A stretch of 43,713 nt of DNA from Dehalococcoidia bacterium (GTDB taxonomy: Bacteria; Chloroflexota; Dehalococcoidia; Bin125), in contig JAJDZG010000047.1 of NCBI GenBank assembly GCA_022824765.1, positions 1 to 43,713 of the forward strand, read 5' to 3'. This document shows positions 32,149-36,517 of this stretch, piece after piece (the stretch's first letter is position 1; each line of letters opens with the position of its first letter). The notes beneath the pieces were generated by a model, which saw only the letters and a list, made by a program, of their open reading frames with translations, ran no database searches and was not told the origin of the DNA. The translations under genes and the position numbers were made by a program.

Positions 32149-32584
32149 GCCTGGGCCTGAGATTGGCGATTTGCTGCCGGATACGAGTCTGCATCTGCGT
32201 CTGCGGCTGGGGGACGGTCCGTTGCTGGTGCTGTTCTTCAGTGAGGCGAACACGCCGCTGTGTACGACGCAGCTGTGCGCGTTTCGCGATGATTACGAGA
32301 TGCTGGCCGAGCTCGGGGCGGATGTGGTGGCGGTGTCGACCGATTCGGAGGCTGATCAGGCGCGGTTCCGCGAGGAGCATCTGCTGCCGTTTGCGCTGCT
32401 GTCGGACGGCGATCTGAGCGCGGCTGCGGCGTTTGGCGTTGCGGATGGGGAGGGCAGGCGGGCGCAGCGGGCGGCGTTTGTGGCGGATCGCGAGGGGGTG
32501 ATCCAGCTGGCGATTCCGTTCTACCAACCGACCAACTTCGAGCACTACCAGCAGGTCTTCGAGGCGCTGGGACTGGATGTGTGA
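32141..32584 (+). CDS. BCP/PrxQ-type peroxiredoxin
   Basis: A 147-residue thiol peroxidase that reduces hydroperoxides. The active-site segment NTPLCTTQLCAFRD carries the peroxidatic Cys41 and a resolving Cys46, the CxxxxC spacing of the PrxQ/BCP class. The downstream VVAVSTDSEADQARFREEH is also typical. It overlaps midA by 8 bases and shares one base with the peptidase start (TGATG), so all three are co-translated. Confidence 0.88.
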   Translation: MSEPGPEIGDLLPDTSLHLRLRLGDGPLLVLFFSEANTPLCTTQLCAFRDDYEMLAELGADVVAVSTDSEADQARFREEHLLPFALLSDGDLSAAAAFGVADGEGRRAQRAAFVADREGVIQLAIPFYQPTNFEHYQQVFEALGLDV

Positions 32585-33765
32585 TGTTTGAGCGCTTTGA
32601 GGTCGAGGCCGAGGCGATTCTGGAGGAGCAGATTCGGCTCTGCGAGATCGCTGCGCCGACTGGGCAGGAGTCGACGCGGGGCGATGCGGTGGCGTCGGCG
32701 TTTGAGTCGCTGGGACTGCGGGTTGCGCGGGATGCGGTGGGGAATGTGATTGCTGAGGGGGCGCGACGGCCGCGGCGTCCGCTGATTCTGAGCGCGCATC
32801 TGGACACGGTGTTCGGGCCTGAGCAGTCGTGTCGGGTGGCGCGGCCGGGTGAGTCGAATCCGTATCGTGGCGGCGCGATCGTGCCGGCCAACGAGTATCA
32901 CGCGCCGGGCATCTCGGACGCGGCGGCTGGGCTGGCGGCGATGCTGGCGGTGGCGCGGGCGTTGTCGGGCACGTCGGCGGGGGAGCAGATCGTGTACGCG
33001 GCCACGGTTGGCGAGGAAGGGCTGGGCGACTTGCGAGGGGCGCGGCAGCTGTTCGCCACTGATCTGGGACGGCGGGCGCGCGCCTTCATCACGATTGACC
33101 ACTCGGACGCGTCGGCGATCGTCAACGCGGGGATCGGTTCGCGGCGCTTCCGCGTGCAGTTTCGGGGACGCGGTGGGCACAGCTGGGGGCACTTCGGGCG
33201 CTACAACCCGGCGTTCGCGCTGGCGGCGGCGTCGGATCGTCTGGCCGCGACGGAGGTGGTGCGGGAGCCGCGGACGACGTTCAACATCGGTGTTGTGCGT
33301 GGGGGCGAGACGGTTAACGCCATCCCGGAGTTCGCGGAGGCGGAGGTAGACCTGCGCAGCGAGTCCCCGTTGGCGCTCGACGGGCTGGAGCGTGTTCTGC
33401 GGGACGCGGTTGCGTCTGGGCATCAGCGCGAGGTCGCGCGACGGAGCGAGGCGGCGCTTGAGCCGTCGCTGGCGCCGATCGGCGATCGACCGGCGGGGGT
33501 GACGCCTGCGGAGAGCGAACTGGAGCGGACGGCGCGGCGGGCGATTGAGGATGAGTCGCTGACGCCGCGGCTGATTGCTGCATCGACGGACGCCAATGCG
33601 GCGATTGCGGCGGGCGTGCCGGCGATTGCGATGAGCTGGGGCGGACGCTCGGACAACCAGCACAGCGTTCGGGAGTGGTTCGATCCGACGGATCGGGCGC
33701 GGTCGCTGCGTGTGCTGTCGCGGATTCTGGTGGACCTGGCGGGTTCGGACGATGAGCGCGGCTGA
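32584..33765 (+). CDS. M20 family metallopeptidase
   Basis: A 393-residue dizinc peptidase/deacylase of the M20 family. The metal and catalytic blocks are SAHLDTVFG, the HAPGISDAAAGLAAML segment with its bridging Asp, and ATVGEEGLGDLRGAR with the catalytic Glu pair. The RGRGGHSWGHFG segment begins the dimerisation domain. The layout resembles peptidase T-like enzymes. ATG 32584 is used; GTG 32581 would give a 4-base overlap. The substrate is unknown. Confidence 0.9.
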   Translation: MFERFEVEAEAILEEQIRLCEIAAPTGQESTRGDAVASAFESLGLRVARDAVGNVIAEGARRPRRPLILSAHLDTVFGPEQSCRVARPGESNPYRGGAIVPANEYHAPGISDAAAGLAAMLAVARALSGTSAGEQIVYAATVGEEGLGDLRGARQLFATDLGRRARAFITIDHSDASAIVNAGIGSRRFRVQFRGRGGHSWGHFGRYNPAFALAAASDRLAATEVVREPRTTFNIGVVRGGETVNAIPEFAEAEVDLRSESPLALDGLERVLRDAVASGHQREVARRSEAALEPSLAPIGDRPAGVTPAESELERTARRAIEDESLTPRLIAASTDANAAIAAGVPAIAMSWGGRSDNQHSVREWFDPTDRARSLRVLSRILVDLAGSDDERG

Positions 33766-33778: not shown

Positions 33779-34186
33779 ATGGCGGACGACGACCTGCGGG
33801 CGTACAGCGAGATCGTGATCGATCACTTTCAGCATCCGCGCAATGCGGGGGTGCTGGAGGATGCGAACGCCGTGGGGGAGGATCGCAATCCGGTTTGCGG
33901 CGATCACATGAAGCTGATGCTGCGGATCGAGGGCGAGGCGATTCGCGAGGCGCGCTTTCAGACGCGGGGCTGTCCGGCGTCGATTGCGACGAGCAGCATG
34001 GCGACCGTGGTGCTGACCGACATGCGGGTTGCGGATGCGGCGGGGTTGACGCGGCAGGACTTTGTTGATGCGGTGGGCGGGTTGCCGAAGGCCAAGATTC
34101 ACTGCTCGGTGCTGGCGGCGGCGGCGCTGACGCGTGCGCTGGCCGACTATCGGGAGCGATCCACGAAGTCAGGCGCGAGCGCGTGA
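33779..34186 (+). CDS. sufU: SufU/IscU-type iron-sulfur cluster scaffold
   Basis: A 135-residue NifU N-terminal-domain protein that carries nascent Fe-S clusters or receives sulfur from a cysteine desulfurase. The three ligand cysteines are in NPVCGD (C40), GCPASIA (C65) and HCSVLA (C109), with the adjacent Asp42. The length is normal. No sufS or sufBCD gene is nearby. It has its own leaderless-type promoter and ends with a GTGA overlap onto the next gene. Confidence 0.92.
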   Translation: MADDDLRAYSEIVIDHFQHPRNAGVLEDANAVGEDRNPVCGDHMKLMLRIEGEAIREARFQTRGCPASIATSSMATVVLTDMRVADAAGLTRQDFVDAVGGLPKAKIHCSVLAAAALTRALADYRERSTKSGASA

Positions 34187-34845
34187 ACGAGCGCCGCGTG
34201 CCGCTGCACCACTCGGTGCTTGATCTGCAGTCGGAGGGCGAGAGCGCGCTCAACGATTGGTTTCGGATTGGCGGTTCGGTCTCGACGATTCGCATTTGCC
34301 TGTCCGACGCCGAGCACGTGTCACTGGCTGCTGCGCTGATTGTGCTGGACGCTGCGCTCGCGCTCTCGGATGGATCGAGGGAGCGGCTGGACGCGCGTCT
34401 GCTGGCGGAGGGCGGGGTGGACGTTGATGGTCGGGAGGGCGCATTGGCGGCGCAGGAGCTGGTCATCCCCAGGCTGCCGCGCGGGGCGCAGACGGCGTTG
34501 GCGACGGCGAAGGCATCGAATGGGGTTGGTGCTGCCGCGCGGCTGTCGCGCAATGGCGATGCGGCGGTGATGCTGGTCGGCGTTGCACCGCATCCGATTC
34601 GGGCGCGTCAGATTGAGTCGGTGGTGCGCGGGCGGGTTCTGGACGACCGGATCATCGACCTGGCGGCGCAGACGGCGCGATCGGAGGCGCAGCCGTACGG
34701 CGTGGGGGAGCTGACCGAGGCGTTCGCCGTGGATCAGGTCGAGGACGCGGCGCGGCGTCTCTTCCGGCGTCTGCGGGACCGTTTCGATTCTGAAGAGTTG
34801 CAGACACCGCCGCATGATCGCCGCCGTCCTGCTCGCCGCCGGTGA
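34183..34845 (+). CDS. Half-length CoxM-like (molybdopterin dehydrogenase FAD subunit) protein
   Basis: A 220-residue protein from a GTG that overlaps the sufU stop by 4 bases. Residues about 40-120 resemble the latter part of the FAD-binding domain of CO dehydrogenase medium subunit CoxM (VSLAAALIVLDAALAL, QELVIPRLPRG). Residues about 130-205 match the CoxM C-terminal domain (MLVGVAPHPIRARQIE, then RIIDLAAQTARSEAQPYG). The N-terminal FAD-binding half is missing. No coxL or coxS lies nearby, but mocA follows with a 32-base overlap, and the pair supports a molybdenum-hydroxylase context. It could be a remnant or an assembly accessory. Confidence 0.72.
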   Translation: MNERRVPLHHSVLDLQSEGESALNDWFRIGGSVSTIRICLSDAEHVSLAAALIVLDAALALSDGSRERLDARLLAEGGVDVDGREGALAAQELVIPRLPRGAQTALATAKASNGVGAAARLSRNGDAAVMLVGVAPHPIRARQIESVVRGRVLDDRIIDLAAQTARSEAQPYGVGELTEAFAVDQVEDAARRLFRRLRDRFDSEELQTPPHDRRRPARRR

Positions 34846-35401
34846 ATCGTCGCGGATGGGCGAGCCGAAGCAGCTGCTTGATTGGCAGGGTCGGAAGCTG
34901 GTGACCGCGCAGAGTGAGGCGTTGTTGGCGGCCGGCTGTCGACCGCTGGTCGTGGTGCTGGGAGCGCACGCGGCGCGGGTGCGTCCGCACGTGCCTGATC
35001 ATCCGGGCGTGCAGATCGTGACGAACCACGCGTGGCGATCTGGTCGTGCGTCCTCGATTCGGGCCGGGGCGCGAGCGGTGCCGTCGGAGGTGGAGGCGGT
35101 GGTGGTGGTCTCGGTCGATCAGCCGACTTCGGCGTCGGTGGTGGAGCGGCTGGCGGAGACGCTGTCGGCGTCGGATGCGGAGATAGTTGTTCCGCGCTAT
35201 GGGGATCGCAACGGGCATCCGCCGATGTTCGCTGCTGGGTTGGTAGCGGAGTTGCGTGAGGTGTCGGAGCGGGGCGAGGGGCTGCGGGAGATTCGGCGCG
35301 GTCATGCGGATGGCACTATCTTCGTGGATATGGACGATCCAATGGTGACGCTGAACCTGAACACGCCTGAGGCGTATCGGCGTGCGGTGTCGCTGCTGTA
35401 A
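34814..35401 (+). CDS. mocA: Molybdenum cofactor cytidylyltransferase MocA-like
   Basis: A 195-residue nucleotidyltransferase that converts molybdopterin to the cytosine dinucleotide form used by xanthine-dehydrogenase-type enzymes. The nucleotide motif LLAAGESSRMGEPKQLL is at about 6-22. VVSVDQPTSASVVERL and GDRNGHPPMF follow as in the MocA/NTP-transferase family. Its 5' end overlaps the CoxM-like gene by 32 bases. The related MobA is the main alternative, but the context and sequence favour MocA. Confidence 0.86.
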   Translation: MIAAVLLAAGESSRMGEPKQLLDWQGRKLVTAQSEALLAAGCRPLVVVLGAHAARVRPHVPDHPGVQIVTNHAWRSGRASSIRAGARAVPSEVEAVVVVSVDQPTSASVVERLAETLSASDAEIVVPRYGDRNGHPPMFAAGLVAELREVSERGEGLREIRRGHADGTIFVDMDDPMVTLNLNTPEAYRRAVSLL

Positions 35402-35469: not shown

Positions 35470-35509
35470 CGCGTCTGGCAGATCGGGCGCGACAGAGAGT
35501 GGACGAGTG

Positions 35510-36517
35510 ATGGCTACCCCGCTACGTCAAACGCTTCAGGTGGGCAAGTATGTGGTCGGTCAGCGGCTGCGCGGCACGAAGCGCTATCCGCTGGTGCTGA
35601 TGCTCGAGCCGCTGTTGCAGTGCAATCTGGAGTGCGCGGGTTGCGGCAAGATTCAGCATCCGACGGATATCTTGCGGCGGCGTCTGACGCCGCAGCAGTG
35701 CTGGGACGCGGTGGAGGAGTGCGGCGCGCCGGTCGTCGCGATCGCGGGCGGCGAGCCGTTGATCCATCAGGACATTGTGGAGATTGCGAACGGCTTCACG
35801 GATCGCAAGAAGTTCGTGTACCTCTGCACCAACGCGATCCTGCTGGAGCGCAAGCTGGCGGAGTTCGAGCCTAACCCGTATCTGACGTTTTCGGTGCATG
35901 TAGACGGGTTCGAGCAGGATCACGACGACTCGGTTTGTCGCGACGGTGTGTGGGAGGTGGCGATCCGCGCGATTGAGGCGGCGAAGGCGCGCGGCTTCCG
36001 GGTGACCACGAACAGCACGTTCTTCCTGGGCGCTCAGCCGGAGCGGATTCGGATGATGTTCGACAAGCTGATGGAGATCGGCGTCGACGGGCTGATGATC
36101 TCACCGGGCTATCCCTATGAGAAGGCGCCGGATCAGGAGCACTTCCTGGCGCGCAATCAGACGAAGGAACTGTTCCGCGACATACTGAATGATCCGCCGA
36201 AGCGCTGGAGCTTCAACCATTCGGAGCTGTTCCTCGATTTCCTGAAGGGCGAGATCGAATACGACTGCACGCCGTGGGGGAATCCGACGTACACGGTGTT
36301 CGGCTGGCAGCGTCCGTGCTATTTGATGGACGAGGGGTACGCGGAGAGCTTCGAGGAGCTGATTGAGGAGACGGAGTGGGAGAATTACGGCGTGGCTTCG
36401 GGTAATCCGAAGTGCGTGGATTGCATGGTGCACTCGGGCTACGAGGCGTCGGCGGTGATCGACGCGACGACGAATCTGAAGGCAGGGGTGAGGAGCTTCG
36501 CTGGTTCGCTACGCTAG
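35510..36517 (+). CDS. hpnH: Adenosyl-hopene transferase HpnH (radical SAM)
   Basis: A 335-residue radical SAM enzyme that attaches an adenosyl group to the hopene side chain, the first step to extended hopanoids. The [4Fe-4S] CxxxCxxC motif is C38-C42-C45 (LQCNLECAGCGK). The GGEPL motif and YLCTNAI follow. The length fits HpnH, and the C-terminal cysteines (NPKCVDCMVHSGYEA) are also typical of the family. ATG 35510 is chosen over GTG 35507. It is separated by about 20 kb from shc-hpnCDE, and hpnG and hpnA lie just beyond the next operon. Confidence 0.94.
   Translation: MATPLRQTLQVGKYVVGQRLRGTKRYPLVLMLEPLLQCNLECAGCGKIQHPTDILRRRLTPQQCWDAVEECGAPVVAIAGGEPLIHQDIVEIANGFTDRKKFVYLCTNAILLERKLAEFEPNPYLTFSVHVDGFEQDHDDSVCRDGVWEVAIRAIEAAKARGFRVTTNSTFFLGAQPERIRMMFDKLMEIGVDGLMISPGYPYEKAPDQEHFLARNQTKELFRDILNDPPKRWSFNHSELFLDFLKGEIEYDCTPWGNPTYTVFGWQRPCYLMDEGYAESFEELIEETEWENYGVASGNPKCVDCMVHSGYEASAVIDATTNLKAGVRSFAGSLR

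Follow-up and report, generated by a model that had tools for sequence, protein, structure and literature searches.

The window (the whole stretch of DNA that was analyzed, 43,713 nucleotides) belongs to a Chloroflexota MAG of 2.35 Mb that is 91.6% complete and has close relatives labelled Dehalococcoidia or Chloroflexi. On its forward strand, an M20-type peptidase gene identified with Pfam (positions 32581 to 33765) precedes an iscU-like scaffold gene, also called sufU (33779 to 34186), which has a NifU_N match of 136.7 bits and is the second NifU_N gene of this genome. It is followed by an open reading frame of 220 amino acids with a GTG start (34183 to 34845), which we call half-CoxM, and then by a mocA-like gene for a molybdenum cofactor cytidylyltransferase (34814 to 35401). 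The MocA-like protein matched NTP_transf_3 with 119.4 bits and matur_MocA_YgfJ with 124 bits, the latter under its cut-off of 186. Downstream of mocA is an hpnH-like radical SAM gene (35507 to 36517; Radical_SAM and DUF3463 in Pfam). With M20, iscU, mocA, and hpnH as its neighbors, half-CoxM is not beside coxS and coxL, and CoxL and CoxS are encoded on other contigs.

Half-CoxM overlaps the genes on both sides. Its start shares four bases, GTGA, with the iscU stop (34183 to 34186), and its end shares 32 bases with the start of mocA (34814 to 34845). The start codon and both overlaps are unchanged in all 15 members of the genus, which suggests coupled translation and bears out the initial annotation of an in-frame gene with overlaps of these lengths. 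The order M20-iscU-half-CoxM-mocA was found in 14 of 14 genus loci, these being the ones taken with wide flanks. The hpnH-like gene followed in 13 of them; the 14th locus (L034) stops within mocA, so that hpnH is out of reach there. This radical SAM gene is also kept beside the half-CoxM locus across the family.

CO_deh_flav_C (PF03450) was the sole Pfam family found in half-CoxM, matching residues 116 to 195 (34528 to 34767) with 30.8 bits against a cut-off of 25.5, and it was above cut-off in every family half-CoxM sampled. Alignments, dN/dS, and a weak structure model support the same domain, and its signature in the alignments is GVAPxPxRARQxE...RGR...QTARxExQPxGxG. The preceding residues 40 to 115 (34300 to 34527) match the CoxM middle (FAD) domain over its distal part in profile alignments and are the least conserved of all parts. 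When the half-CoxM profile was compared with a profile built from 12 full-length CoxMs of the class, residues 25 to 171 corresponded to CoxM columns 128 to 277 with a probability of 97.3, from the second glycine motif onward. A PDB search with a single half-CoxM sequence gave no convincing match. The family profile matched solved M subunits, and these matches were confined to their C-terminal 160 or so residues (4zoh_B 120-277 and 1n5w_C 126-286; 1ffu_C was also matched).

The FAD motifs are another matter. FAD_binding_5 (PF00941), which includes the first glycine motif (AGG), had no Pfam match in the half-CoxM of the window, and the alignment shows this region to be missing. A domain search did not find it in the half-CoxMs of genera g2, g4, and g5 either. 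At the site aligned with the second motif (TIGG), where the alignment is approximate, two of the 15 genus members have IGG and the others have IGD, IGN, FGD, or FSN. Judged by its sequence, the second motif is eroded. In the domain layout described for KdhM, the N-terminal domain (1-61) holds the first FAD motif, the middle domain (62-172) has TIGG at 111-114, and the C-terminal domain (173-287) is described as not contacting FAD directly (PMC8305194). Together with our alignments, this layout implies that the first FAD domain is absent from half-CoxM, as is the greater part of the second. Pfam and the profile comparisons agree with the original description of half a CoxM, in which the C-terminal and distal FAD-domain parts are kept and the N-terminal FAD half is gone. 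We rejected the idea that a front half is concealed upstream or in a different frame, because sufU occupies that stretch. In frame, half-CoxM is preceded by only 38 open codons in the window, and in one relative by as few as 16. A second match in the window genome (G000:C87) was a chance one, with an E value of 0.016 and a position within an unrelated gene.

Structure models rest on 15 close sequences and are weak for that reason. The model of the whole protein (mean pLDDT of 46) was set aside, and that of residues 40 to 200 (mean pLDDT of 58) was used just to rank matches to M subunits. Its end part has three strands and then three helices, like the description of the KdhM C-terminal domain. 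The top 15 PDB matches were all M subunits or the corresponding part of xanthine oxidoreductases, the best being 1ffv_C (76 residues aligned, rmsd of 3.4) with a Z score of 5.4, although a Z score of about 5 is weak. Foldseek with the same model found no match at an E value of ≤0.001.

Every one of the 15 genus genomes has half-CoxM, with 70 to 93% protein identity, and the sole length change is of four residues near the end. Its median dN/dS over 105 pairs, with the overlaps excluded, was 0.136, compared with 0.114 for iscU and 0.194 for mocA; these and the following dN/dS figures are approximate because dS is high (median pS of 0.60). The CO_deh_flav_C core had the lowest value of any part (0.077), residues 46 to 115 were at about 0.21, and the closest pair gave 0.044/0.461, or about 0.10. 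A decaying fragment, or an open frame whose sole use is as a leader for mocA translation, might be suspected here, since half-CoxM belongs to an enzyme-subunit family but is truncated, and coupling could be achieved by the overlaps alone. However, dN/dS is low outside the overlaps and lowest in the core, and the protein has kept its sequence and nearly its exact length across 15 genomes. We regard decay or a leader function as highly improbable. Half-CoxM is a real protein under selection. The first reading of the gene, that it does not look like decay, holds: it is intact throughout the genus, it is carried by many genomes and not by one only, and a dN/dS of about 0.14 is far below 1.

The half form was found in 19 of the 20 family genomes, that is, in every genus member and in four of the five others, where it has 196 (G017), 215 (G018), 226 (G019), or 214 (G015) amino acids. 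In all genomes with the half form, iscU/sufU is immediately 5′ of it. The link to mocA is looser. In genus g5 a luciferase-like gene separates half-CoxM from mocA, and in genus g2 an alpha/beta-hydrolase-like frame follows half-CoxM and mocA is farther away. Therefore, the order sufU-half-CoxM-mocA, which the initial annotation proposed to look for in relatives, is conserved within the genus and always has sufU directly in front, but its mocA end does not hold in g5 and g2. The intervening gene in g5 encodes a luciferase-like monooxygenase (L018 2050-3000; also in L048). The g2 IscU-like protein (L028 2104-2586) has NPAMSI where its relatives have NPVCGD, so that the first cluster cysteine is missing.

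G016 is the one family genome with no half form; at the exact site of half-CoxM it has a divergent full-length CoxM of 284 amino acids, with both FAD_binding_5 (63.9 bits) and CO_deh_flav_C. A profile search of a 245-genome class sample gave at least 166 bits for family members and at most 60 bits for everything else, a gap that is partly built in because the search profile contains the family members (halves and G016). Among the matches listed, no half form outside the family was confirmed in this sample. Two short frames were rejected as half-CoxMs: one (G153, 153 amino acids) comes from a full CoxM whose frame is broken and that lies next to CoxS and CoxL, and the other (G065, 220 amino acids) is cut by a contig end.

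We also compared 36 iscU loci from outside the family, which were the best iscU matches and thus a non-random choice. A complete iscU-coxM-coxS-coxL-mocA series was present in four (L095, L100, L111, and L116). Another five have iscU followed by cox genes and end before mocA could be reached (L094, L110, L112, L113, and L114). In 14, iscU and mocA occur without cox genes, and 13 have neither pattern. A methyltransferase-28 gene, often together with a redoxin gene, lies 5′ of iscU in many of these loci, as it does in the window. This neighborhood, with iscU beside mocA, recurs across families of the class (L090 to L125), and its recurrence without cox genes hints that iscU and mocA are a wider functional pair. 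In one of the complete loci (L100 8437-9270), CoxS and a retropepsin-like aspartyl protease domain (gag-asp_proteas, 41 bits) share a single reading frame, which reflects either a fusion or a missed start.

These loci suggest where the half gene might have come from. Since coxM is the first cox gene after iscU, removal of coxS and coxL yields exactly the order seen in G016, and a further loss of the CoxM front yields the arrangement in the window. In the series that we propose, coxS and coxL would have been lost from, or moved out of, an iscU-mocA operon. The coxM gene alone would have remained, as in G016, and its front half would then have been lost once, leaving a half gene with the FAD part gone. 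The half-CoxMs form a single clade in the tree (support of 98/94), which fits a single truncation. The QTAR-E signature is common to the G016 CoxM and the half-CoxMs and occurs in none of 16 other CoxMs compared. The G016 CoxM has a loosely placed branch of 3.03 in the tree, and a profile of the halves only gave it 32 bits, with 13 to 37 bits for CoxMs of iscU loci and up to 53 bits for ordinary CoxMs. Neither the tree nor this profile singled out G016 or the iscU-locus CoxMs as the nearest kin of the halves. From gene order and one shared motif, QTAR-E, we infer that half-CoxM would descend from the coxM of an iscU-locus operon. Direct iscU-mocA neighbors without cox genes are the commoner arrangement, so coxM alone could instead have inserted between them. 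Living genomes present a stepwise series, from a full operon between iscU and mocA through a lone full-length CoxM to a conserved half-CoxM. With whole coxM-coxS-coxL sets at the same locus elsewhere and a full-length CoxM in G016, half-CoxM appears to be a retained remnant of a trimmed operon. The idea in the initial annotation that it was repurposed is plausible and now has this evolutionary series behind it.

Genes for CoxL, CoxM, and CoxS were counted in 18 family genomes, all except G003 and G012, and those for NifU_N and XdhC in eight. Two CoxLs and a single copy each of CoxS, full CoxM, and half-CoxM make up the set in G017 and in every one of the 13 genus genomes examined. Both g5 genomes (84 and 87% complete) have a single CoxL, CoxM, and CoxS in addition to half-CoxM, and G016 has five CoxLs, four CoxSs, and four ordinary CoxMs besides the CoxM at the locus. 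The orphan CoxL (L054 7821-10109; L053 1-2225) has no CoxS or CoxM nearby, lies beside MaoC-like and ThiS-like genes, and retains the GVGE glutamate stretch. An XdhC gene is found elsewhere in these genomes, away from the half-CoxM locus, and seven of the eight genomes examined have another NifU_N gene elsewhere, of a more typical kind. The iscU-half-CoxM-mocA set therefore looks dedicated rather than general.

What might this protein do? Half-CoxM is probably a non-flavin protein with a docking or assembly role. It would no longer carry FAD, would retain the non-flavin C-terminal domain, and would dock on molybdenum hydroxylases or assist their assembly, perhaps by holding the M-subunit site on a CoxS-CoxL complex. 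The products of its neighbors would supply cofactors, with iron-sulfur clusters from IscU and molybdopterin cytosine dinucleotide from MocA. The Kdh structure as described in PMC8305194 has KdhS bridging KdhL and KdhM, so an FAD-less M C-terminal domain could dock on CoxS or on a CoxS-CoxL complex. The IscU-like protein of g2, without its first conserved cysteine, weakens a general iron-sulfur delivery story. We give roughly an even chance to the whole proposal, an FAD-less operon remnant kept to dock on molybdenum hydroxylases or help assemble them. A narrower form is rather doubtful, namely, an assembly placeholder that would occupy the M site during cofactor delivery by IscU and MocA and later be swapped for the true CoxM.

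Two other partners have to be weighed. Half-CoxM might complete or stabilize the orphan CoxL as a structural partner in an FAD-less complex. The extra CoxL found alongside a single full CoxM, a single CoxS, and the half gene in the genus and G017, the surplus CoxL of G016, and the retained GVGE stretch all fit this, and so do four of the five genera. However, in both g5 genomes the half gene occurs with a single CoxL that comes with its own CoxM and CoxS, the orphan CoxL is encoded elsewhere, and M usually touches S and not L in the structure described (PMC8305194), while a second CoxS is absent. On balance, this seems unlikely to us. Alternatively, half-CoxM might bind MocA or IscU alone, handing over a cofactor or cluster or tethering the two proteins, with the M site not taken. 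The overlapping genes of the genus, which suggest coupled translation, and the presence of iscU directly 5′ throughout the family would be expected. But mocA is displaced by the luciferase-like gene in g5 and is farther off in g2, and most families with iscU-mocA have no half-CoxM, so that this too is improbable. As a cofactor-insertion partner for MocA, the role first suggested for it, half-CoxM would fit its neighbors, and its partner could equally be IscU, CoxS/CoxL, or the orphan CoxL. Reading the sequence evidence as a whole, we would place a docking or assembly role first, a partner for the orphan CoxL next, and binding to MocA or IscU alone last.

A half gene kept between two cofactor-assembly genes suggests that a leftover piece of an enzyme gained a new supporting job. 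If the docking or assembly role is true, a catalytic subunit was converted into an accessory protein, and the small set of IscU-like protein, half-CoxM, and MocA is directly testable for molybdenum hydroxylase assembly. Our searches of the open-licence literature found no published description of half-CoxM. To our knowledge, little is known about molybdenum-hydroxylase chaperones besides XdhC.

The M subunits CoxM, CutM, and KdhM have the same C-terminal domain and distal stretch of the middle domain as half-CoxM. In contrast to them, half-CoxM has no N-terminal FAD domain, has an eroded second glycine motif, and is not encoded with CoxL and CoxS. It also has QPxGxG in place of the CoxM end motif PisDxRGSaexR. 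In some bacteria, the genes for XdhC chaperones are reported to share a transcript with mocA (PMC2997495), and half-CoxM is similarly a small non-catalytic gene that adjoins mocA. However, it is not XdhC; no XdhC family domain was among its Pfam or NCBIfam matches up to an E value of 1, and these genomes have a separate XdhC gene elsewhere. Some molybdenum hydroxylases, such as the aldehyde oxidoreductase of Desulfovibrio gigas, have no flavin subunit, and their L and S subunits work without M. Those enzymes have no M whatever, whereas half-CoxM is a part of M that has been kept under selection.
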